From Micromonospora eburnea (lineage in GTDB: Bacteria; Actinomycetota; Actinomycetes; Mycobacteriales; Micromonosporaceae): DNA of 64,000 bases. A program made the position numbers and the translations under genes. The DNA is taken from assembly GCF_900090225.1 (NCBI RefSeq), contig NZ_FMHY01000002.1:372001-436000 (forward strand), given 5' to 3'. This document shows, one piece after another, positions 1,361-11,701 of this stretch; the stretch's first letter is position 1; every line of letters begins with the position of its first letter. Below the pieces are notes generated by a model. That model was given only the letters and a program-made list of their open reading frames with translations. It had not been told where the DNA came from and made no database searches.

Positions 1361-1857
1361 CCCGTCGACGTGCCCTGGTCGCGGCGCTGGCCGGCGCGCT
1401 CCTCGCCGGGGGATGCGCCAACTCCGGCGGGCCGTCGTCCACCACCGACCGTAGTGGTCGACTGGAGGCCGGCGGCGTGACCGTCGAGGCGACGCTGACC
1501 GACGGTCCCGACGGCGGGCGGCTGCGGACGACCTTCCGCCCGCAGCGGCCCGGCTTCCATCTCTACAGCATCGACCTCCCGCCGGACGGGGTGCAGGGGC
1601 TCGGCATCCCGACGGTCGTCGCCGTCCGGGGCAGCTTGGACGCGACTGGTGCGGCGAGCGCCGACATGCCGGTCAGTAACCTGCGGATCGAGGAGCTCGA
1701 CGTCGACCTGCCCGTCTACCCGGACGGCCCGGTCACCGTCACGCTTCCTGTCCGGTCCACCGGGGACGGTCCGGCCGAGGTGGTGGTCACGTACGGCGCG
1801 TGCAGCGCGGGCACCTGCCTCCCGCCGGTACGCGAGCGTGTGATCGCCCTGACCTGA
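1342..1857 (+). CDS. Lipoprotein with DsbD N-terminal (alpha)-like domain
   Basis: The 171-residue product can start at GTG 1342 or at TTG 1357, whose TTGA overlaps the preceding stop. The GTG is preferred because it gives a positive N-region (TRRR) before the hydrophobic stretch. The signal ends in LLAGGC, a slightly weak lipobox. The mature part is beta-rich and ends with GACSAGTCLPPVRE. Its two cysteines, followed by PP, match the redox-active loop of the DsbD alpha domain (CxxxxxCxPP type). It is translationally coupled to the thioredoxin-like lipoprotein. The expected role is periplasm-like reductant shuttling. The specific partner is unknown, and there is no membrane beta domain on either chain. 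Confidence 0.7.
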   Translation: MGTEALTRRRALVAALAGALLAGGCANSGGPSSTTDRSGRLEAGGVTVEATLTDGPDGGRLRTTFRPQRPGFHLYSIDLPPDGVQGLGIPTVVAVRGSLDATGAASADMPVSNLRIEELDVDLPVYPDGPVTVTLPVRSTGDGPAEVVVTYGACSAGTCLPPVRERVIALT

Positions 1858-1958
1858 GGTCCAGCGATCTGCCCGCACACCTCGCCCTCACCGGCGGTCG
1901 AGCCACGGCGCGCGGCGGGCGCAGGGCTGTACGGCGGTTCGGGTTCCGTGACGCCGGA

Positions 1959-1987
1959 CGCCGCGCCCGCTACCTGCGCCGCCGCTG
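1959..1987 (+). repeat. 29-bp imperfect direct repeat, copy 2 (pair at 661-689)
   Basis: This is the second copy of the repeat that brackets the lipoprotein pair. It sits about 100 bp after the DsbD alpha-like gene, in a stretch (1858-2081) with no gene of its own. The reading frame through it ends RRARYLRRR-stop, as in the first copy. Confidence 0.6.
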
Positions 1988-2081
1988 ACCGTCGCCGGCT
2001 CCGCGGCCCGGCGGCCCGGGCGGGAGCCGGTGCGAGGTGGTGACACCTCGGCCTGCTCGCCCGCCCGGGCCGGTGCGCGGG

Positions 2082-3548
2082 TCAGCTGGCCGTGGTCGAG
2101 GCGGCCCGCACGTCCCGTACGTCGCTGGCGAGCCGCCCGAGTACCCAGGCCAGGGCCGGGGCGTTGGCGCCGAGTGCCTGCCGGTTGACGGTGGCGAGGG
2201 TGTCGCAGGTCTGGTGGTAGCAGTGGTCGAACATCTGCCCGGCCTCGCCGCCGAAGAGGGCCTGCTGCGCCGGCGTTTTCACGCCGAGGTTGCCGCCGTC
2301 GATTCCGCCCACCGGGATGCCGACGTCCTGGAACACCAGGTGGTCCGAGCCCACCGACTCGGGACCGGTCCGCTGGTACGGCAGCCCCCGGCGGTCGAAG
2401 TACGCCCCGAAGAGGCCGGCGATCACGTGGCTGCCGCCGGTGCCCGGATCCCAGACGAAGCGGGCGTCGTTCGGTGCGGCGATCAACTCGCCGTTGAGCA
2501 CCGCCGCGATGCGCTGCCGTTCCGCTGCTGACAGGGCGGAGACGTAGTAGCCGGAACCGACGTCGATCATCTCCTCAGCGCCCCACCAGGCGAACCGCAC
2601 CTTGTTTCGCACGGAGTGCTGCTGGTTGGCCAGGGCCAGCGCCACCTGGAGGACGGTGGCGGCCGTCGAGCCGTTGTCGTTGATGCCCGGCCCCTCGGGG
2701 ACGCTGTCGAGGTGGGCGCCGAGCAACACGACGTTGTTCGGGTCGCCGCCGGCCGTCTCGGCCAGCACGTTCACCGTCGTCCGCGGCACCGACCGACCGA
2801 CCAGGGTCAGGTGTACGCGAACCGTTCCGGCCCGCGACGCCCGGACCAGTTCCTCGCCGTCGCGCTGGGACACCGAGGCCACCGGGATCGTGAAGTCCGC
2901 CGGGTTGAACGCGAAGAACCGGTAGCTGTTCTCCGGGGAGGGGGTGGCGTAGTAGAGGAGCACCGCGCGGGCACCCAGGCCCGCGGCGACCTGCTGCTGG
3001 AGGCTGTAGCCGCAGGCGGCCCGGGCGAGTACCACGACGGATCCGGCGACGGGAAGCCCGGCGTAGTCGGCCGCGTCGCAGCCGGTACGTCCGGCGGCCG
3101 GCGACACCACCGGCGCGTCGATGCCGCTGACGGGGGTCGACGGGGCGAAACGGGTCATCAGCACCGGCGGGTCGATGACGGCCGCGCCAGAGACGGTCAG
3201 TTGCTCGGTGCTGATCTCGAAGTTGGTGTAGGGGACGGTCTGCTTCACCACCCGATAGCCGGCGGCCGTCAGCAGGCCGCTGACGTAGTCGGCGGAGCGG
3301 GTGAATCCGACCTGGTCCCAGGCCCGGTTGCCGCCGCTGCGGTCGGCGATGAGCTGGAACGCCGCCAGGTGACGGTAGACGGCATCGCCGGTGACGGCGG
3401 CGGCCAGCCGGTCGGCCAGGACCTGGTTCCCGGGCGGAACGGCGCCGGGTGCGGCCTGGGCGGCGCGGCCGGCTGGCCCGACCAGGCTGGCCGCCAACAG
3501 CAGACTCGCCAGCCCGGCGAGTCTTCGGAACGCTGTCGATCTGTGCAC
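2082..3548 (-). CDS. Secreted M28-family zinc aminopeptidase with PA domain
   Basis: 488 residues from GTG 3548, preceded by GGAGG at the right distance. A Sec signal peptide ends near residue 33 (AAQAAPG). A PA insert occupies roughly residues 130-230 and the M28 catalytic domain roughly 255-480. Metal and catalytic residues are visible: HLD (His279, Asp281), GINDNG (Asp291), WGAEE (Glu325, Glu326) and CYHQTCD (His445). The ligand usually seen as Asp in an NxDMIGSPN motif is Glu354 here (NGELIAAPN). The gene begins 15 bp after the P450 stop, on the same strand, and so is likely co-transcribed with the MRYIH pentapeptide gene. Inference: it may trim the N-terminal residues of the exported peptide. 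It could equally be a general secreted aminopeptidase. Confidence 0.85.
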   Translation of the reverse strand: MHRSTAFRRLAGLASLLLAASLVGPAGRAAQAAPGAVPPGNQVLADRLAAAVTGDAVYRHLAAFQLIADRSGGNRAWDQVGFTRSADYVSGLLTAAGYRVVKQTVPYTNFEISTEQLTVSGAAVIDPPVLMTRFAPSTPVSGIDAPVVSPAAGRTGCDAADYAGLPVAGSVVVLARAACGYSLQQQVAAGLGARAVLLYYATPSPENSYRFFAFNPADFTIPVASVSQRDGEELVRASRAGTVRVHLTLVGRSVPRTTVNVLAETAGGDPNNVVLLGAHLDSVPEGPGINDNGSTAATVLQVALALANQQHSVRNKVRFAWWGAEEMIDVGSGYYVSALSAAERQRIAAVLNGELIAAPNDARFVWDPGTGGSHVIAGLFGAYFDRRGLPYQRTGPESVGSDHLVFQDVGIPVGGIDGGNLGVKTPAQQALFGGEAGQMFDHCYHQTCDTLATVNRQALGANAPALAWVLGRLASDVRDVRAASTTAS

Positions 3549-3563
3549 GGAACCTCCGATCCT

Positions 3564-4769
3564 TCACTCCCGCCGTACGGTGACGGGCAGTTGGGCGACC
3601 CCGCGCAGGGTCGCGGTGGGTTCGTAGCTGGATGGTCCGGCCGGGGTGAATCGGATGCGGCTCGCCCGCAGCCCGTCCACCACCTCCCGCAGTTGCATGG
3701 TCGCCAGCGCGGCGCCGAGGCAGGCGTGCGCGCCGCGTCCGAAGGCGAGGTGCATGCCACGCCGCCGGCTCAGGTCCACGGCGTCGGGGGCGGCGAAAAC
3801 CGCCGGGTCACGGTTGGCCGCCGCGATGAACAGCACCAGTACGTCCCCCCGCCGGACGACCTGCGTGCCGACGGCGCATTCCGTCACGCAGACCCGGGCG
3901 TCGGCCTGGACCGGCCCGTCGAGCCGGAGCAGTTCGTCGACGAGCGGGTCCGTGTCGTGCGACGTGGCGGCACCGGCGAGCAGGGCCGGGTCCGTGACGA
4001 GCCGGACGAGCACCGCCCCGAGGAGCCGGCTGACGGATTCGTAACCGGCGTGCAGCACCGCGCGTAGCGAGTTGGCCAGCACCGCCGCCGGGACGTCCTG
4101 GCGGCGCGCGGCGGCTCGGGCCACGCCGATGAAGCCTTCCTCGTCGGCGTCCCGCAGCCAGTCGCCGACCATCCGGCTCAGTTCGGCGCGGGCCTGGTTG
4201 CCGGGCTCCGCCCGATCCGGTTCGAGGCCGGCGTCCATGCTCCGCACGATGGCGTTGGACCACTGCTCGAAGGTGGGGCCGTCGGGTGGCGGCACCCCGA
4301 GAAAGGTGGAGATCGTGCGGAGGGCGACCGGGCGGGCGAACTCACTGACCAGGTCCACGGGCTCCGTCCGGGCGGCCAGTTCGGACAGCCCGGCCGCCGC
4401 GATGTCGGCGACCTGCTGTCGCATGGCTGCCGGTGACTGTTCGTGCAGTGCCGAGACGAGCAGGTGACGAATCGCGGTGTGTTCCGGCGGATCGAGCGAC
4501 TGCACGCTCAACTGGGCTTGCGGAATTGGGATTCCCACCCGCCGAAAGTCGGAGCCGAAATGGTTGGTGTCCGCGAGCACCTGCCGGCATTCCTGATATC
4601 CGGTGACCACCCAGGAATCCAGTACGGTGTGCCAGTAAACCGGATTGATCTCCCGGAGTCTCCGATAAAACGGGTAGGGATTGGCGATCACCTCGGGCGC
4701 CAACGGTTCATAGACCGGGTCACCGGCCGCCGTTGCCACCGCTTCCGCCGCAGCGACTTCTCCCGCCAC
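3564..4769 (-). CDS. bytO: Cytochrome P450, biarylitide cross-linking type (BytO-like)
   Basis: About 401 residues from GTG 4769, which has GGGAAGGA 8 nt upstream. A TTG at 4823 is also open but lies inside a hairpin and lacks a ribosome binding site. P450 landmarks in order: HTAIR in the C helix (about 97-101), I-helix AGYES (about 241-245, with Ser where Thr is usual), ExxR as ELLR (about 279-282), NRDP, and the haem loop FGRGAHACLG with Cys near 350. The gene lies directly downstream of an 18-nt ORF encoding MRYIH. In biarylitide pathways such a P450 forms a C-C or C-N bond between the aromatic side chains of residues 3 and 5 of the pentapeptide. Assignment rests on this pairing plus P450 motifs. 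Ferredoxin partners are not nearby. Confidence 0.85.
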   Translation of the reverse strand: MAGEVAAAEAVATAAGDPVYEPLAPEVIANPYPFYRRLREINPVYWHTVLDSWVVTGYQECRQVLADTNHFGSDFRRVGIPIPQAQLSVQSLDPPEHTAIRHLLVSALHEQSPAAMRQQVADIAAAGLSELAARTEPVDLVSEFARPVALRTISTFLGVPPPDGPTFEQWSNAIVRSMDAGLEPDRAEPGNQARAELSRMVGDWLRDADEEGFIGVARAAARRQDVPAAVLANSLRAVLHAGYESVSRLLGAVLVRLVTDPALLAGAATSHDTDPLVDELLRLDGPVQADARVCVTECAVGTQVVRRGDVLVLFIAAANRDPAVFAAPDAVDLSRRRGMHLAFGRGAHACLGAALATMQLREVVDGLRASRIRFTPAGPSSYEPTATLRGVAQLPVTVRRE

Positions 4770-4809
4770 CGAAACGTCCTTCCCGAGTTGGTAGTTCGTG
4801 CAGGCAGCC

Positions 4810-4847
4810 GTCGTTGCGGCCAACCGAATTCGATTGGCCGCAACGAC
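4810..4847 (-). promoter_or_regulatory. 14-bp perfect hairpin between the pentapeptide gene and the P450
   Basis: Arms 4810-4823 and 4834-4847 are exact complements around a 10-nt loop. The hairpin lies 8 nt after the pentapeptide stop and about 40 nt before the preferred P450 start. No T-run follows, so a simple intrinsic terminator is unlikely. A stop for 3' exonuclease or an attenuator that sets the peptide-to-enzyme ratio is plausible. Confidence 0.6.
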
Positions 4848-4855
4848 CCGGCAGA

Positions 4856-4873
4856 TCAGTGGATGTAACGCAT
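4856..4873 (-). CDS. bytA: Pentapeptide RiPP precursor MRYIH (biarylitide BytA type)
   Basis: On the minus strand the codons are ATG CGT TAC ATC CAC TGA, encoding MRYIH. An excellent Shine-Dalgarno, GGAGAGGAGG at 4888-4879, ends 5 nt before the ATG, which is strong support for real translation of such a short frame. The biarylitide family uses five-residue precursors of the MRYxH or MRYxW type. A P450 joins Tyr3 to the aromatic residue 5, and the leader residues Met-Arg are removed. The P450 expected for this step starts about 85 nt downstream. The product would be a cross-linked Tyr-Ile-His tripeptide, possibly N-acetylated as in known members. The Ile at position 4 distinguishes it from the archetype with Tyr there. 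Confidence 0.88.
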   Translation of the reverse strand: MRYIH

Positions 4874-4898
4874 GATGGCCTCCTCTCCAAGCAGTTCT

Positions 4899-4922
4899 CC
4901 GTTCGTCGTTGTCGACGAACGG
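4899..4922 (-). promoter_or_regulatory. 10-bp hairpin in the leader of the pentapeptide gene
   Basis: Arms 4899-4908 and 4913-4922 pair perfectly around a 4-nt loop, 10 nt upstream of the Shine-Dalgarno. It could stabilise the short mRNA 5' end, or be an operator for an unseen regulator. Confidence 0.5.
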
Positions 4923-5471
4923 ACGTCATGGCAGGAATGTGCGCAGGCGAATAGATCGAATCCACGTCGCGGCACATCTCTGTCCCGGCGTGAGGCGGTG
5001 CCGGAAAGTTTCACTCATTGGGGCGATGCCGCCGATCGCCAACTTGCCACACGAATGCCGAAGGCGTCAACCATTGACGTTGACGACTTCGCTAACGCGC
5101 AGGTGGTGAGGCGGATGATGCCCTGTGATCACCAATTCTGATCAAGCGAGCGCGGCTTGCGCCCGATTGCGCCGGTGATCCTCGCAACCGGTTGAGCCAC
5201 GACGTGCGCCGTGCGCAGGGCGAGCTTTGATCGACGGCCGGCCGCATCGGTGTCGCCGACCGTCGGGCGGCAGGTGGTCGCAGAAGCCGGTGGCGTACGG
5301 CCGCGCCGGCGTACGTTTGGAATGCCGCTCGCGGATCTGCCGGGGCCGCAGGGGGAGTCGCTACCGGCGGGTCTCTTCCATGGGGTGCCCCGCGTCGCGT
5401 CGGCCCGCCAGTCGACGGATCACATCACGCACGGATGACCGCCCTTCGCCGGATCACGTCGAGGTGGACGA
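4923..5471. other. Gene-poor region upstream of the pentapeptide operon
   Basis: No convincing coding sequence is seen, and base composition looks less GC-rich than its neighbours up to about 5150. An inverted repeat with 7-bp arms (CGTCAAC at 5065-5071 and GTTGACG at 5079-5085) is a candidate operator. On the minus strand one arm also offers a TTGAC-like -35 element, but no good -10 follows. The promoter of the pentapeptide operon should lie somewhere here. Confidence 0.4.
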
Positions 5472-5507
5472 GGCGGCCTCCACCGGTTGCGGTCGGCGGA
5501 GGCCGCC
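5472..5507 (-). terminator. Strong stem-loop, putative terminator
   Basis: GGCGGCCTCC at 5472-5481 pairs perfectly with 5498-5507, and a further ACCG/CGGT pair lies inside. There is no T-run. It lies 50 nt beyond the small ORF at 5557-5682 on the minus strand. Confidence 0.45.
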
Positions 5508-5556
5508 CCGACCTGTTCGGGTACGGCGGCAGGGCCGCGCTGCTGGGGAGCTGCGC

Positions 5557-5682
5557 TCATTGAAAGAGCCGGCCCGGCCTCCTGGAGCGGCCCCGCTTGG
5601 TGATCATGGAATCCCTGCGCCTGCGGCGCACCATGATCGAGTTGACCTTCCGCGACAGCCCCTTGAAGATCCTGTCCTTCAT
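5557..5682 (-). CDS. Possible small, highly basic 41-residue protein
   Basis: An ATG at 5682, preceded by GGGAAGAGG, opens a 41-codon frame: MKDRIFKGLSRKVNSIM, then a run of five arginines, ending PGRLFQ. About 37 of 40 sense codons after the start end in G or C, which suggests coding, and a stem-loop lies downstream. Against this, the frame contains a short inverted repeat (GATCATGG and CCATGATC around a TGCGCC/GGCGCA pair). No family is recognised. If real it would bind nucleic acid or membrane by charge, or act as a leader peptide. Confidence 0.3.
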   Translation of the reverse strand: MKDRIFKGLSRKVNSIMVRRRRRDSMITKRGRSRRPGRLFQ

Positions 5683-5955
5683 CGCATGCCTCTTCCCGGT
5701 GCGTCAGATCGGCCTTGGCGAATCCGCGCCGAAAGGTGGCAGCGGCGCTGGGCCCGCCGGCCATGTCGCAGGCCGCGTACCCGACGAGGCGGCGGTCACT
5801 CATCAACGTCGCCTGTCTGTCCCTGTCGGCAGCGCATGCAACGCCTACGACACGAGCCACGTTGTTGTAGGTGTTGCGCCGGAGGCGTATGTCCGGGCCA
5901 CGCTCGTAAACCTCGATAGGCCGGAGTTGCCGGTCCAGCGCCTCCAGAACGGGTG
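5683..5955 (-). pseudogene. Unassigned stretch with a partly protein-like minus-strand frame
   Basis: One minus-strand frame from about 5955 to 5700 keeps moderately high G/C at third positions and reads plausibly (PVLEALDRQLRPIEVYERG, then RRLVGYAACDMAGGPS). This bias collapses near 5690, where the small basic ORF begins in another frame. The upstream end runs into a palindromic repeat and there is no good start. It may be a decayed or frameshifted gene. No family was recognised. Confidence 0.25.
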
Positions 5956-6032
5956 TGATCGACTCCAGGTGCGGCACCACGGCGGTGTCACGGCGACCGG
6001 AGACCGCGACATGCCGCAAGCGGAGTCGATCA
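5956..6032. repeat. Imperfect palindrome, dispersed family copy A
   Basis: The ends are TGATCGACTCC and its complement GGAGTCGATCA, followed inward by TGCGGCA and TGCCGCA. The centre is less perfect (GTGTCACGGCGACCGGAGAC). Related palindromes occur at 47241-47313 and 51559-51625. Together they look like a REP or MITE-like intergenic repeat that can form a long hairpin. Confidence 0.55.
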
Positions 6033-6106
6033 ACCTCGAAAGGGAGTCGATCGACCTCGAAAGGTGGTCGATCTGCCCCGAATAGGGTCGATCAGCCCTG
6101 GAAGGG
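6023..6106. repeat. 21-bp tandem repeat, four copies
   Basis: GTCGATC recurs at 6025, 6046, 6067 and 6087, giving periods of 21, 21 and 20 bp. The first two units share GAGTCGATC followed by ACCTCGAAAGG almost exactly, and the last two are degenerate. The array begins inside the right arm of the palindrome at 5956-6032 and stops at the helicase stop codon. It may have grown by duplication of that arm. Confidence 0.65.
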
Positions 6107-7786
6107 TCAGTCGAAGGAGGGGAGGGACGGGCCGAGGACGTCGTCGGCGTCGACGATGGTGTACGCGTACCCCTGCTCGGCGAGGAAGCGCTGCCGGTGG
6201 GCGGCGTACTCGGTGTCGATGGTGTCCCGGGAGACCACCGTGTAGAAGTGCGCCTGCCGGCGGTCGGCCTTCGGCCGGAGCACCCGGCCGAGCCGCTGCG
6301 CCTCCTCCTGCCGGGAGCCGAACGTGCCGGACACCTGGATCGCCACCGCCGCCTCCGGCAGGTCGATGGAGAAGTTGCCGACCTTCGAGATGACCAGGGT
6401 GCGTACCTCGCCCGAGCGGAACGCGTCGAAGAGCCGCTCCCGCTCCTTGTTGGTGGTCGAGCCCTGCACGATCGGCGCGTCCAGATACTCGCCGAGCTGG
6501 TGGAGCTGGTCGATGTAGCCGCCGATCACGAGGACCTGCTCGTCCGGGTGCCGCTCGACGAGCGCGCGAACCACCGGCAGCTTCGTCCGGGCGGTCGCCG
6601 CCATCCGGTAGCGCTCCTCCGCCTCCGCCGTCGCGTACGCCATCCGCTCGGCGTCGGTCAGCGTGACCCGTACCTCGGTGCACTCGGCCGGGGCGATCCA
6701 GCCCTGCGACTCGATGTCCTTCCACGGCGCGTCGTACCGCTTGGGGCCGATCAGGCTGAACACGTCGCCCTCGCGGCCGTCCTCGCGGACCAGGGTGGCG
6801 GTCAGACCGAGCCGGCGGCGGGCCTGAAGGTCCGCGGTGAACCGGAAGATCGGCGCGGGCAGCAGGTGCACCTCGTCGTAGATGACCAGGCCCCAGTCGC
6901 GGGCGCTGAACAGGTCCAGGTGGGTGAACGCGCCGCCGCGCCGCGAGGTGAGCACCTGGTACGTGGCGATGGTGACCGGGCGGATCTCCTTGCGCTCGCC
7001 CGAGTACTCGCCGATCTCTTCCTCGGTCAGCGAGGTGCGGGCCACCAGCTCCCGCTTCCACTGCCGGCCGGCGACCGTGTTGGTCACCAGGATCAGCGTG
7101 GTCGCCTTCGCCTCGGCCATCGCCGCCGCCCCGACCAGCGTCTTGCCGGCGCCGCAGGGCAGCACCACCACGCCCGACCCGCCGGCCCAGAACGCCTCCA
7201 CGGCCTCCCGCTGGTAGGACCGCAGGGTCCACGGCTTCACGCCGTCCTTGCCGGCCTCGGCCAGCTCGATCGGGTGCGCCTCGCCGTCCACGTAACCGGC
7301 CAGGTCCTCGGCCGGCCAGCCGAGCTTGAGCAGTGCCTGCTTGAGCCGGCCCCGCTCGGACGGGTGCACCGCGATCGTGTCGTCGTCGAGCTTCGCGCCG
7401 AGCATCCCGGCGAGCTTCTTGCTCTTGGCGACCTCGACCAGCACCACCCGGTCCAGCGCGCGTAGCACCAGCCCGTGCGCCGGGTCGTTGACGAGTTGGA
7501 GCCGGCCGTACCGGTCCATGGTCTCGGCGACGTCGACCAGCAGCGCGTGCGGCACCGGATAGCGGGAGTACTTGATCAGCGAGTCCACCACGCCCTCGGC
7601 GTCGTGGCCGGCGGCCCGGGCGTTCCACAGCCCGAGCGGGGTGAGCCGGTAGGTGTGTACGTGCTCCGGAGAGCGTTCCAGCTCGGCGAAGGGCGCGATG
7701 GCGATCCGGCACGCCTGCGCGTCGGGGTGGTCGATCTCCAACAGCAGGGTCTTGTCGGACTGCACGATCAGTGGTCCACCGCTCAC
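6107..7786 (-). CDS. XPB-type DNA repair helicase (SF2)
   Basis: 559 residues from GTG 7786, with AAAGGG about 9 nt upstream. The N-terminal half carries the XPB damage-recognition-like part. The first RecA-like domain shows Walker A PCGAGKT (about 210-216) and the DEVH box (about 305-308), and LGLTATLVREDG follows as motif III. The second RecA-like domain ends with QRLGRVLRPK (motif VI). Bacterial XPB proteins unwind DNA with 3'-5' polarity and are linked to repair and stress survival. A helicase-associated protein that commonly accompanies this helicase in actinomycetes is encoded 1.4 kb away on the same strand (9233-11701). Confidence 0.93.
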   Translation of the reverse strand: MSGGPLIVQSDKTLLLEIDHPDAQACRIAIAPFAELERSPEHVHTYRLTPLGLWNARAAGHDAEGVVDSLIKYSRYPVPHALLVDVAETMDRYGRLQLVNDPAHGLVLRALDRVVLVEVAKSKKLAGMLGAKLDDDTIAVHPSERGRLKQALLKLGWPAEDLAGYVDGEAHPIELAEAGKDGVKPWTLRSYQREAVEAFWAGGSGVVVLPCGAGKTLVGAAAMAEAKATTLILVTNTVAGRQWKRELVARTSLTEEEIGEYSGERKEIRPVTIATYQVLTSRRGGAFTHLDLFSARDWGLVIYDEVHLLPAPIFRFTADLQARRRLGLTATLVREDGREGDVFSLIGPKRYDAPWKDIESQGWIAPAECTEVRVTLTDAERMAYATAEAEERYRMAATARTKLPVVRALVERHPDEQVLVIGGYIDQLHQLGEYLDAPIVQGSTTNKERERLFDAFRSGEVRTLVISKVGNFSIDLPEAAVAIQVSGTFGSRQEEAQRLGRVLRPKADRRQAHFYTVVSRDTIDTEYAAHRQRFLAEQGYAYTIVDADDVLGPSLPSFD

Positions 7787-7961
7787 GCCAGCGCCCTTTC
7801 CCTTGCCGGATCCCCGTCGCCCGCATGCCGGCTGACCGTGCCAGAGGCGGACCATCCAGTGTTGCACGCGCGGAGGTGTCCGGAAAAAGTCATGTCCGAG
7901 AGGCAACGCGACATGGGCCTCACACGTCTACGAAGGGAACACCTGTCCAGGGGGAGGGTCC

Positions 7962-8858
7962 ATGAAGCGTGTCCGACTCACGGTTCGGGTCGTCGCCCTG
8001 GCCACGGTCGTGCTGGTCGGCGTGGGTGCGTGTGCGCTCGATGCGCAGGGCGACGGCGTCGGGGCGGCCGCCCCGACACCCGTCGGCGTGACGGAGACAG
8101 CATCGGGGGCGAGCGCGCCCGCACCCACACCGGGCCAGCCGACCGGATCCCCGTCGGCGGAGCCGATCCGGCCGGGCACACCGAAGCCCAGCGGGCCGGC
8201 CACACCGAAGCCCAGCCGGACGACGACGGCCGCCGCCGCGCCGAAGCCGAGCGCCTCCGGGTTCACCGGCTGCCCGCAGGGCGAGCACCAGCGGGCCGTG
8301 GAGGAAAGCCTCGCCAAGCTGGGTGGGTTCGGCACGGTGACCGTGGACGGGAAACAGTCCGCCGCCGACTGCGCCGCGATCAAGAAGTTCCAGCTCAGGT
8401 ACGGGATCAGCCCCGCCGCCGGCCGTGCCGGCACCACCACGTACGACGTGGCGCGGCGGCTGGCCAGCACCGACGTGAGCCGCTGCAAGGCCGGTTCCGG
8501 GCTGACCTTCTGCGTCGACCTGACCCGGCAGACCGTCTGGGCGATGCGGGACGGCAACGTGGTGATGGGCCCGACGGTCACCCGCACCGGCATGGCCGGG
8601 TACGCCACCCCGACCGGCACCTACCGGGTCGGCTGGCGGAACCGGAAGGAGTGGTCCAACCCGTACGAGGTGTGGTTGCCGTACTGGCAGCAGTTCAACG
8701 GCGGGATCGGCTTCCACGAGACCACCACGTACCTGCACAACAAGTCGATCGGTTCGCACGGCTGCGTCAACCTGCTGCACCGGGACGCGGTCCGGCTCTG
8801 GGAGCTGGGCTCGGTCGGCACCCGGGTGGTCGTCTTCGGCCACCGTCCCGGCACCTGA
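7962..8858 (+). CDS. L,D-transpeptidase lipoprotein with peptidoglycan-binding domain
   Basis: 298 residues from ATG 7962, preceded by GGGGGAGGG. A lipoprotein signal ends VGAC (Cys24), followed by a Pro/Thr/Ala-rich linker to about residue 100. A peptidoglycan-binding-like segment follows (about 103-170), then a YkuD catalytic domain (about 180-297). The catalytic motif is SHGCVN with Cys268, and an upstream His lies in GIGFHETTT. Such enzymes make 3-3 cross-links or attach proteins to peptidoglycan outside the membrane. Four cysteines outside the active site (Cys104, 137, 175, 184) might form disulfides. Confidence 0.9.
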   Translation: MKRVRLTVRVVALATVVLVGVGACALDAQGDGVGAAAPTPVGVTETASGASAPAPTPGQPTGSPSAEPIRPGTPKPSGPATPKPSRTTTAAAAPKPSASGFTGCPQGEHQRAVEESLAKLGGFGTVTVDGKQSAADCAAIKKFQLRYGISPAAGRAGTTTYDVARRLASTDVSRCKAGSGLTFCVDLTRQTVWAMRDGNVVMGPTVTRTGMAGYATPTGTYRVGWRNRKEWSNPYEVWLPYWQQFNGGIGFHETTTYLHNKSIGSHGCVNLLHRDAVRLWELGSVGTRVVVFGHRPGT

Positions 8859-8970
8859 GCCGCCCGTATCCCCGACCGACCGGCGCGGATCCGGGTTTTA
8901 TCCCCTGTCCGAGAGTCCTTTTCGGTGCCACGCTGGGAACCGGGGTCCAGTGGGGCGGGAGGGGCGGACG

Positions 8971-9207
8971 ATGGCGGTCGACCACGACGTACTTCGCGAG
9001 GAGGACCGGGCGCCGGGCGGCGAGGTCTCCACGGCGGCCCTGATCGGATACGCGATCGCCGCCGTCGGCATCCTCGGCTGGTTCCTGTTCGGGCTGCTGG
9101 TGCAGCGGCAGGGCTTCGTCGACTCGGTCGGCGAGGCGGCCGGCGCGGCGTTCGGGCTGCTGCTCGCCGTCTCGGTGGTCGAGATGATCCGGCACAACGG
9201 CCGCTGA
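8971..9207 (+). CDS. Small two-helix membrane protein
   Basis: 78 residues from ATG 8971 with GGGAGGGG 6 nt upstream. An acidic N-terminus (about 25 residues) leads to a first hydrophobic helix (ALIGYAIAAVGILGWFLFGLLV). A short loop and a second helix (GAAFGLLLAVSVVEMI) follow. No family is recognised. It ends 25 bp before the convergent gene at 9233, with a short CGGGCC/GGCCCG stem between them. Confidence 0.65.
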   Translation: MAVDHDVLREEDRAPGGEVSTAALIGYAIAAVGILGWFLFGLLVQRQGFVDSVGEAAGAAFGLLLAVSVVEMIRHNGR

Positions 9208-9232
9208 GCGGGCCGGGGCCCGACCGGCACGT

Positions 9233-11701
9233 TCATTCCTCCAGCACCGCCGCGGTGATCCGGTGCAGCGCGAAGGTGTGCATCATCTCCGTCCGTTCGT
9301 CCTCGGCGCGCAGGTAGCCCGCCCCGATCGACACCGGGCGGACCAGCCGGGACGCGGTCGCCCCGTGCGCGTCGACGTATCCCACCCAGACCAGCGCCTT
9401 GTCGCGGACCGCCTGCTGGAGCACGGCGAGCGCGTCGTTGTGCGTGTGCGCGGGCACCATGCCGATGCGCGCCGTGCCGCCCCGGACCACCGCCGGGGCC
9501 CGCCGGGCCGCCCGCGCCGCCGCGTCGCCGCGGCGGATCTGCTCCACCACCCCGAGCAGCCGGGGCAGGGGCAGCTTCGGCGAGGCCAGCGGGTCCAGGC
9601 CGCGGCTGGCGACCGGCACCCGGGCCGGCGCCCGCCGGGTCTTCGGCCGGGAGAGCACGGCCGAGCCGCTCGCATCCTCCGGCACCGGCGCGTACCCGGC
9701 GTCGCGCAGCGCGGTCAGCATCCGCCCCACCTGGTACGGGGTGACCAGCACCGTCGGAGCCAGCCGGCGGAACGCCAACTGCTCCAGCCGCCGGTCGGCC
9801 AGCACCTCGGTGAGCAGCGCCTCGTCGTCGCTGCGCACGTACCCGCCGGCGGAGCCGACCCGCAGCCCGCCGTGCTTGCGGGCCACGTCGTTCACCAGGT
9901 ACGTCAACCCCTGCGGCACCGGCGTACGCGAGCGGCGGCGGAACAGCGCGTGCAGGTCGTCGGCCGAGTAGCCGGCGTCCAGGGCACGTCGGACGCTGGC
10001 CGTGGTGACCCGGTGCACGCTCGCCCCGCCCGCCGATTCGTGCTCGGCCACCACGTCCAGCTCGGCGGCGAGCCCCGGGTCGGGCGGACCGGGCACCACC
10101 ACGGTCAGGTCGGCCTGGAGCAGGAAGTGGTCGACCGGGGCGGGCAGCAGTGCGTCCAGCGCGCGTACGGCGGTGGACGGTTCGTCCGACTCGGTGTCGG
10201 AGAGCAGCCCGAGCGGGTCCTCCGCCCGCTCGTCGGCCTCGGTCACGTCGGCCAGCAGCAGCCGCCCGTACGAGGTGAGCGCGCCGAGCCCGGTCACCCC
10301 GAGCTGGGCCGCCTCGGCCAGCACCTCGCGGTGCGCGGCCTCCCGGCCCCGGGCCCGCCGGGGCGCCCGCCAGTCCAGCGACTCCAGCACCTCGTCGGGG
10401 GTCGGGGCGGTCGCCGGTGCCAGGTCGGCCAGGACGGCGAGCACCGCGCGTCGGGCGGCCGGGGCGCCGGCCCGTTCCGCCTCGGCGGAGAGCACCGAGA
10501 TCGGTCGGTCCCGGTCGTCGCGCTGGCCGACCAGGCCCACCTGGCGGGTCATGGTCAGCCAGGCCCGGGCCAGTTGCTCCCAGCGCTGGGCCAGTGAGCC
10601 GGCCCGCCACACCTCGTACCCGCCGGTGGGCAGGATCTGCTGGTCGCCGCCGTACCGGGTGGTGGCGGTGCCGGTCAGGTCAAGTTCGCCGACCAGCCCG
10701 GCCGCGTACGCCACCTCGAACAGCAGCGCGGTGGTCGAGTCGTCCAGCCCGAGCCCCCGGGCCAGCCGGCGCAGGTCACGTACGCCGACGCCGCCGGAGC
10801 GCAGCACCGGGGCCGGTTCGGCGGCCAGGCTCTCCAGCAGCGCCTCGGTGTGGCGTACCACCTCCATGGTCTGTCCGGCCCCGGCGGAGTCCACGGCCTT
10901 CGGCTCCCGGGGCGGGCTCGCCACCACGGGCGGGTCGGTACGCAGCGGGCCGAGCGGACCGCTGTCCCGGCGCAGCAGCAGACCCACCTCGCGGGGCAGT
11001 TCGACGGCGCTGCCCCGGCCGCCCGAGACCGGGACGAGCAGCCGGTGTTCCACCAGCCAGCGGATCGGTGAGCCGGTCGGCGCGCCGCCGTTGGTCTGGT
11101 CCGGGGGAAGCTCGTCCTCGGCGCCGGTGGCGGGGGCGTCGAGCGCGCCCGGGGGCACCGTGCCGACCGGTGGCCCGGCGGCGAGCCGGTCCAGGATCGC
11201 CCGGGCCGAGGGCGGCGCGGCCAGCAGCGTGCGCCGCAGCTTCGCCGGGTCCGCGCACAGCGCCGCCGTCCGCGGGTCCAGGTCCGCCGCCGGTCGGCCC
11301 AACCCCGCCGGGTACGGGGAGACCTCGTCGACCCCGTCCACCAGGTGCAGGTCGTGCTCGGGGCCGTGCAGCAGGAAGAGCGCGCGGAGCCGGTCGACGG
11401 CGCGCCGGACGGCGGTCGGGGCGGGCGGGTGTGGGCCGGTGGTGGCCAGCGCCAGGATCGCGTCGGTGGCGGTGCCACCGCCTTCCGGATCACGGGTGAG
11501 CCGGGCGGCGTCCAGGATCTGGAGGGTGAACTGGTCCAGCCCGTCGAGGGCCCGGGCCACGGAGACCCGCGACTGGGCCCGGATGGCGAGGGCGGAGACG
11601 TCGGCCGGCACCGGTACGACGAGGTCCGGCCGCAGCTGGAGGAGGGCGGCCAGGGACTCGTCGGGAAGGGCCCGCAGACGGTCGGCGAGTGAGGTGGTCA
11701 T
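9233..11701 (-). CDS. Helicase-associated protein with C-terminal WYL-like domain
   Basis: 822 residues. It has no Walker A motif, so it is not itself a complete helicase. The N-terminal part is winged-helix-like (SLADRLRALPDESLAALLQLRPDL). The middle matches the Helicase_C_3 type region (LTVVVPGPPDP through LGVVEQIRRGDAA). The end (ALVWVGYVDAHGATASRLVRP and ERTEMMHTFALHRI) resembles a WYL ligand-sensing domain. Actinomycete genomes commonly carry this protein near the XPB helicase, as here. A role in recruiting or regulating the helicase in DNA repair is inferred from that linkage. Confidence 0.8.
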   Translation of the reverse strand: MTTSLADRLRALPDESLAALLQLRPDLVVPVPADVSALAIRAQSRVSVARALDGLDQFTLQILDAARLTRDPEGGGTATDAILALATTGPHPPAPTAVRRAVDRLRALFLLHGPEHDLHLVDGVDEVSPYPAGLGRPAADLDPRTAALCADPAKLRRTLLAAPPSARAILDRLAAGPPVGTVPPGALDAPATGAEDELPPDQTNGGAPTGSPIRWLVEHRLLVPVSGGRGSAVELPREVGLLLRRDSGPLGPLRTDPPVVASPPREPKAVDSAGAGQTMEVVRHTEALLESLAAEPAPVLRSGGVGVRDLRRLARGLGLDDSTTALLFEVAYAAGLVGELDLTGTATTRYGGDQQILPTGGYEVWRAGSLAQRWEQLARAWLTMTRQVGLVGQRDDRDRPISVLSAEAERAGAPAARRAVLAVLADLAPATAPTPDEVLESLDWRAPRRARGREAAHREVLAEAAQLGVTGLGALTSYGRLLLADVTEADERAEDPLGLLSDTESDEPSTAVRALDALLPAPVDHFLLQADLTVVVPGPPDPGLAAELDVVAEHESAGGASVHRVTTASVRRALDAGYSADDLHALFRRRSRTPVPQGLTYLVNDVARKHGGLRVGSAGGYVRSDDEALLTEVLADRRLEQLAFRRLAPTVLVTPYQVGRMLTALRDAGYAPVPEDASGSAVLSRPKTRRAPARVPVASRGLDPLASPKLPLPRLLGVVEQIRRGDAAARAARRAPAVVRGGTARIGMVPAHTHNDALAVLQQAVRDKALVWVGYVDAHGATASRLVRPVSIGAGYLRAEDERTEMMHTFALHRITAAVLEE

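Follow-up and report, generated by a model that had tools for sequence, protein, structure and literature searches.

A Biarylitide Locus of Micromonospora eburnea in Which an M28 Aminopeptidase Gene Follows the Pentapeptide and P450 Genes

The founding paper on biarylitides is reportedly that of Zdouc et al. The closest described system to the locus considered here is that of Micromonospora sp. MW-13, whose cytochrome P450 (P450Blt) cross-links the pentapeptide MRYLH (PMC10929621, PMC12951456) through a C-N link (PMC12951456). The link made by SavB is reported as C-C and is said to match the original YYH compound (PMC9113118, PMC13417212), and RufO of rufomycin biosynthesis is 41.6% identical to P450Blt (PMC12186263). 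The relevant part of a 2026 paper describes the characterized biarylitides as having no dedicated protease; the enzyme that removes the leader of actinobacterial biarylitides, as well as the purpose of these compounds, is stated as open (PMC12951456, PMC13417212). The locus described below lies in a 64-kb stretch of M. eburnea DNA, referred to as the window. A sequence-only reading of the window had given an interpretation of the precursor and P450 genes that is supported here, but it missed the M28 aminopeptidase gene, the conserved hairpin, and the occurrence of MRYIH in other genomes.

Precursor gene, P450, and relatives

All features of the locus are on the minus strand. The bytA-type precursor gene occupies positions 4856 to 4873 and reads ATG CGT TAC ATC CAC TGA, encoding MRYIH, with a Shine-Dalgarno sequence AGGAGG (4879 to 4884) placed 5 bases (CCATC) before the ATG; both had been claimed before and were found on reading the sequence. 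The precursor has the biarylitide features of five residues, aromatic side chains at positions 3 and 5, and a ribosome-binding site. Among the 45 pentapeptide open reading frames (ORFs) of any sequence in the window (ATG, GTG, or TTG start, both strands), two have a Shine-Dalgarno match of at least 5/6, and MRYIH is the only one to combine Tyr3 with His, Trp, or Tyr at position 5. The MRYIH DNA pattern has a single site in the 7.19-Mb genome, at this locus, and its backwards control has none. The first larger gene to lie upstream and share this orientation encodes an XPB-type helicase (6107 to 7906) about 1.2 kb from the pentapeptide gene; given this gap, the pentapeptide, P450, and M28 aminopeptidase genes look like one unit of three. 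A consensus scan of positions 1800 to 6100 returned 0 promoter-like and 0 terminator-like sites, so that the stretch yielded no consensus promoter and no T-tailed terminator. The XPB-type helicase, an L,D-transpeptidase, and a second Helicase_C_3 protein beside the locus (6107 to 11701) seem unrelated to it.

The P450 gene, of the bytO/P450Blt type (3564 to 4769, 401 amino acids), ends with a stop codon at 3566 to 3564, and its most likely start is GTG 4769, which has a GGAAGG-type ribosome site upstream; a longer frame from TTG 4823 is possible, and its start would fall inside the hairpin. In line with the earlier description of an intact P450 in the same direction, the protein matches PF00067 (6.8e-14, Pfam), and the haem motif FGRGAHACLG, ELLR, and the I-helix motif AGYES are readable in the translation. 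It is 74% identical to P450Blt of MW-13 (structures 8U2M, 8U3N, and 8UKZ), and the 12 other P450 matches in the same genome are 27 to 39% identical. The two enzymes agree at H240, E244, S245, V175, and V293 (H234, E238, S239, V169, and V287 in P450Blt), and A237 is also kept (residues named in PMC10929621 and PMC12186263; offset six). Asp169, Val240, Ala289, and Ile74 of RufO correspond to Val175, Ser245, Val293, and Ile80 here, one of the four being RufO-like (Ile80) and three Blt-like. No match to NO synthase (PF02898) was found in the genome, two of 14 control genomes being positive. P450Blt-like residues together with the missing NO synthase match make cross-linking, likely through C-N, the expected reaction, and the enzyme would likely join Tyr3 to His5 of MRYIH. 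The 74% identity and the three Blt-like positions assign the locus to the biarylitides, and by every feature that can be tested in sequence it is a biarylitide locus of a known kind; the same assignment in the sequence-only reading is thus supported, the pairing with a precursor also being kept in relatives.

A P450 profile search of 354 Micromonosporaceae genomes found 36 with a match at 1e-60, seven of them with at least 600 bits, and a contig scan with P450 alignment A1 gave 34 loci. An earlier contig scan with a single P450 protein yielded 73 stretches that matched a pattern, of which none was confirmed, and a plasmid search with the P450 returned 221 records, all below 60% identity, of which the Bacillus arachidis match alone was opened. 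We define as close those loci with a P450 at least 60% identical, one per organism; 15 were examined, namely, the window, MW-13, M. rubida, M. olivasterospora, M. okii, Phytohabitans flavus, an Actinoplanes, Streptomyces palmae, S. albus, S. qinglanensis, S. sp. AA1529, S. reniochalinae, S. diacarni, Streptacidiphilus fuscans, and the Streptomyces genome G452. A pentapeptide ORF with a ribosome-binding site lies upstream of the P450 in all 15, encoding MRYxH in 14 (one with a GTG start) and MRYIY in one; the sequence-only reading thus withstands the refuting condition that it had set, P450 homologues of relatives without a preceding MRYxH or MRYxW frame. MRYIH itself occurs in five of them (the window, P. 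flavus, S. qinglanensis, S. sp. AA1529, and S. reniochalinae); it belongs, as a conservative member, to a series already described and is not special to this genome. A literature search for the MRYIH sequence returned none, and it is absent from the main text, as distinct from the supplement, of a 277-cluster survey (PMC13417212). In more distant loci, the pentapeptide gene can also sit after the P450.

The MRYIY pentapeptide of G452 (locus L116, position 3008) belongs to a locus of the P450Blt type that has both the hairpin and the M28 peptidase, and a Tyr-Ile-Tyr ring made from it would resemble K-13/OF4949 in outline. S. palmae (L062, 7747 to 7912) encodes MRYLH three times, in 74-nt repeats, with one hairpin behind the third copy, and Actinomadura sp. 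J1-007 has two MRYRH genes, with Arg at position 4, between P450 and M28 peptidase (L076, 9203 to 9301). On the Bacillus arachidis plasmid, an MNYNH gene (L092, 6210 to 6227) follows a 37% identical P450; a 13-bp hairpin is present, and an IS6 transposase and ATP-grasp genes are encoded nearby. O-methyltransferases of one family (PF00891), possible tailoring enzymes, are found near three loci (L065, 9306 to 10364; L023, 11399 to 12403; L076, 5566 to 6279).

Aminopeptidase gene and its pairing with the P450

The aminopeptidase gene (2082 to 3548) starts 15 nt after the P450 stop at GTG 3548, which is preceded by GGAGG, and it encodes a 488-residue protein of the M28 family with the M28 fold and a PA domain, whose residues 1 to 36 resemble a signal peptide. 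The other M28 matches of the genome are at most 42% identical to it. H279, D291, E325, and E326 are kept in 118 of 118 aligned relatives and H445 in 116; the remaining ligand place holds Glu354 here and in 96 of the 118, Asp being present in 22. These five residues and the 354 place would correspond to the M28 metal ligands and catalytic Glu. In a midpoint-rooted tree of the 118 proteins, the Glu354 type is not a clade, since its common ancestor holds all 118, while the 26 P450-paired peptidases (equal-sized contigs) go back to an ancestor that holds 92 proteins, none of the Asp type; Glu354 was accordingly rejected as proof that the enzyme acts on biarylitides.

A relative of this peptidase is encoded 3' of the P450 on the same strand in 13 of the 15 close loci, MW-13 included, and the pairing spans three genera (Micromonospora, Phytohabitans, and Streptomyces). 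It is absent after the P450 in Actinoplanes (L104) and Streptacidiphilus (L065) and in a 58% identical Amycolatopsis locus; the Streptacidiphilus genome has no peptidase match at 1e-40. In a comparison of the flanks, for which alone ORF-caller gene lists were used (the caller chose wrong frames in several high-GC places, e.g., L058/L103), P450 and peptidase were the sole gene families present throughout. The MW-13 and M. rubida flanks have two upstream families in common, and five Streptomyces loci share other flank families (dihydroxyacetone-kinase-type genes). In Phytohabitans flavus (L103, 9619 to 16762), about 2.5 kb separates P450 and peptidase, and one ORF downstream combines an Asp/Asn beta-hydroxylase domain with an MFS transporter.

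Because a start from the P450 could bias this count, a second search was begun from the peptidase. At 1e-100 it is found in 7 of the 354 Micromonosporaceae genomes, in 8 places, 6 of which follow a P450Blt-type P450, five closely and the Phytohabitans one at 2.5 kb. M. rubida carries an additional intact copy (L102, 9150 to 13191; 62% identical). Only a P450 remnant of about 50 residues precedes it, at a distance of 2.6 kb, and no pentapeptide was found there; a second weak match there to the P450 C-terminal part, in another frame, overlaps the remnant and was not counted. This is perhaps a decayed biarylitide locus, and the intact copy indicates that the peptidase can stand without the pathway. 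In G313, a peptidase about 50% identical (49 to 51%) lies 3.2 kb from a biarylitide-like P450 of 38% identity (L101, 8824 to 14596); it was not counted as a pair, no pentapeptide being found there. Among 392 Streptomyces genomes, a group centered on one of the positive genomes, 3 have the peptidase at 1e-100 (two known beforehand), and these are also the 3 with the P450 at 1e-120. Altogether, in 9 of 10 peptidase genomes the gene lies 15 nt to 2.5 kb after a P450Blt-type P450, corresponding to a hypergeometric value of 5e-19 that ignores relatedness (9 shared of 10 and 10 among 746 genomes). The P450 and peptidase distance matrices correlate with an r of 0.96 over 14 loci (12 close loci, L076, and L101; 0.96 also without the latter two), a value reached in 0 of 10,000 permutations. 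Among the matches listed, peptidases at least 59% identical are on contigs equal in size to that of a listed P450 in at least 21 of 42 cases (the window's included), those of 45 to 58% in at least 5 of 52, and those below 45% in 0 of 26, the paired counts being lower bounds because both lists show one contig per cluster; for one pair in the group of at least 59% identity, the shared contig measures just 2,944 bases.

Hairpin between the precursor and P450 genes

Between the precursor and P450 genes lies a hairpin of 17 bp with a 4-base loop (4810 to 4847), supported by folding and covariation, which starts 9 nt after the bytA stop. The fold of 4780 to 4873 has a z score of -3.9, and 0 of 200 shuffles are as stable. 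In an alignment of 14 loci (the 15 close loci less G452, the Actinoplanes row being kept although misaligned at the hairpin), pairing is present in 92.9% of 196 cells versus 33.0 to 41.5% with one arm slid, and 34 cells are changed on both sides versus 1 to 10. Counted by pair, 14 form and 8 have a change on both sides, for which the control is weak, as sliding by +1 gives 7 and 3 of 500 shuffles reach 8. The best Rfam match of the hairpin, mir-8515 with 25.5 bits against a gathering score of 100, was taken as chance.

To follow the hairpin across relatives, the 60 nt downstream of the last pentapeptide copy were scored for their best stem, which was compared with the top 1% of its own locus in 46 loci, i.e., 45 with a pentapeptide plus L116, many Streptomyces ones being near relatives; 8 of 53 loci scanned had no pentapeptide by the scan rules and were left out. 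The hairpin is in the top 1% in all 16 loci with a P450 at least 57% identical (the 15 close loci and Amycolatopsis), where it starts 9 to 22 nt after the pentapeptide stop. Where the pentapeptide gene precedes the P450, 18 of 19 loci have the hairpin in the top 1%; where it comes after, 7 of 27 do. The idea that it belongs to every biarylitide gene was rejected, as among the latter loci only 3 of 21 Streptomyces MKYWH ones show it at this level. In S. palmae and Actinomadura sp. J1-007, the hairpin follows the last pentapeptide copy only, which fits a border element better than an aid to the translation of each copy. No T run follows it in the window, and it is likely a partial terminator or stability element that keeps enzyme expression below that of the precursor. 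A predicted fold of the 90-bp bytAO spacer in myxarylin, beside a terminator, appears in a supplement legend (PMC8708641), and our literature search found no mention of the conservation of such a spacer fold. The hairpin offers a second handle for mining genomes for a gene too small for gene callers, as well as a testable case in which a six-codon message would exceed that of the enzyme behind it.

Proposed maturation and comparison with known systems

The sequences themselves show the order of the genes, the families to which P450 and peptidase belong, the co-occurrence of the two, and a covarying hairpin; the cross-link, the trimming, its place, and the role of the hairpin are predictions. 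Our main reading, to which we give a probability of roughly 0.6, is that of a three-gene biarylitide locus, in which the MRYIH pentapeptide is cross-linked between Tyr3 and His5 by the P450 and a secreted-type M28 aminopeptidase removes Met and Arg. The hairpin would yield more precursor message than enzyme message, and a P450Blt-type P450 would then cross-link Tyr3 to His5 of MRYIH. Since the N terminus of the peptidase is of the signal type, trimming would be extracytoplasmic and follow the exit of the cross-linked pentapeptide from the cell; Met and then Arg would be removed, and the reaction would stop at Tyr because this residue is held in the ring. The expected product is a cross-linked Tyr-Ile-His, probably with a C-N link as for P450Blt, with an [M+H]+ of about 430.2, or 472.2 if N-acetylated, as calculated by hand from generally known residue masses. 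A precedent is the aminopeptidase RufB, which acts on the nitrated MRYLH of rufomycin (PMC12186263).

The points that count against a dedicated peptidase are the two close loci and the 58% identical Amycolatopsis locus without it, the M. rubida copy without an intact pathway, the Glu at the ligand place, and the production of mature biarylitide YYH from bytAO alone in Streptomyces coelicolor (PMC9113118), from which it follows that a general peptidase can do the trimming. The same S. coelicolor result and the two peptidase-free loci suit a scavenger, secreted and merely traveling with the P450 while general cell peptidases trim the pentapeptide; we consider this possible though unlikely, as the peptidase is kept in 13 of 15 loci and three genera, diverges congruently with the P450, and belongs to a subfamily nearly absent elsewhere in the 746 genomes searched. 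Somewhat less likely still, the enzyme could be the target of the biarylitide, an immunity partner, or a product-controlled enzyme to which the cross-linked tripeptide binds. This reading draws on the same co-occurrence, on the intact M. rubida peptidase without an intact P450 beside it, on the inhibition of aminopeptidase B by OF4949 and of angiotensin converting enzyme by K-13, from a Micromonospora, two similar cross-linked tripeptides whose cross-links have been compared with those of P450Blt products (PMC10929621), and on the statement that the biological function of biarylitides is unknown (PMC13417212); against it, an aminopeptidase is just what the removal of two N-terminal residues needs. 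In a bolder combination, for which we see a slim chance, the peptidase would trim outside the cell and then be held by the ring of Tyr-Ile-His, which would remain in the active site as a tight product inhibitor, while the hairpin would let ribosomes on the pentapeptide gene set P450 and peptidase levels. If so, cells would have in the biarylitides of this clade their own, self-made regulators of aminopeptidase activity outside the cell, and this would be the missing biological role of these compounds.

The two remaining readings concern the P450 and the pentapeptide. A tyrosine-nitrating, RufO-like P450 whose product would be processed by the aminopeptidase, freeing 3-nitrotyrosine for another pathway, would parallel RufO, which acts on MRYLH before RufB does (PMC12186263), and Ile80 is RufO-like as one of four compared positions; such nitration was rejected because no other position of the four is RufO-like and because the genome has no NO synthase match, two of 14 control genomes being positive, and with Blt-like V175, S245, and V293 and with 74% identity to P450Blt against 41.6% between RufO and P450Blt (PMC12186263), it appears very improbable. 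The covarying hairpin 9 to 22 nt past the stop in 16 P450-clade loci could also suggest that MRYIH is a regulatory leader peptide rather than a precursor, its translation controlling the hairpin and hence the P450 gene. A hairpin that close would lie within the footprint of a ribosome on the stop codon. However, a peptide of the MRYxH type is the demonstrated substrate of a close relative of this P450, the pentapeptide can also sit after the P450, and S. palmae and Actinomadura sp. J1-007 have the hairpin after the last of several copies only; a leader peptide is, in our estimate, nearly negligible.

Among the described systems, the MW-13 P450Blt/MRYLH locus (L022/L060) has the same order as the window locus: MRYxH with Shine-Dalgarno sequence, hairpin, P450 (74% identical), and M28 aminopeptidase (75%). 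It differs in Leu instead of Ile at position 4 and in its other flanking genes. A recurrent peptidase gene beside the much-studied MW-13 P450 means that trimming and purpose become testable with two purified proteins and one synthetic peptide. Our literature search found no discussion of an M28 peptidase at biarylitide loci; Table S1 of PMC13417212 (coclustered genes), which was outside its scope, may list it. Compared with the M28 enzymes SGAP (Streptomyces griseus aminopeptidase) and PaAP (Pseudomonas aeruginosa), the locus peptidase has Glu354, where more distant relatives have Asp, and its type, unlike them, adjoins biarylitide P450s.

The bytAO locus of Planomonospora (YYH, YFH) and savAB of Saccharothrix (YVH) likewise consist of an 18-base precursor gene and a P450 (PMC9113118, PMC13417212), but they are described as two genes, or with an amidinotransferase and a hydroxylase, and the parts of those papers that describe them mention no peptidase. 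In myxarylin maturation, cross-linking likewise comes before leader removal (PMC12951456); however, the candidate trimmer there, the prolyl oligopeptidase ProTM32, belongs to a different family of the serine proteases and comes from a Streptomyces locus adjoining a biarylitide-like cluster (PMC12951456), whereas a metallo-aminopeptidase is encoded here, and no methyltransferase stands directly in the row at the window locus. In rufomycin biosynthesis, too, an MRYLH substrate passes from a P450 (RufO) to an aminopeptidase (RufB) (PMC12186263), but the P450 reaction is nitration with an NO synthase. Among biarylitides, the built-in peptidase gene makes the M. eburnea locus a variant.
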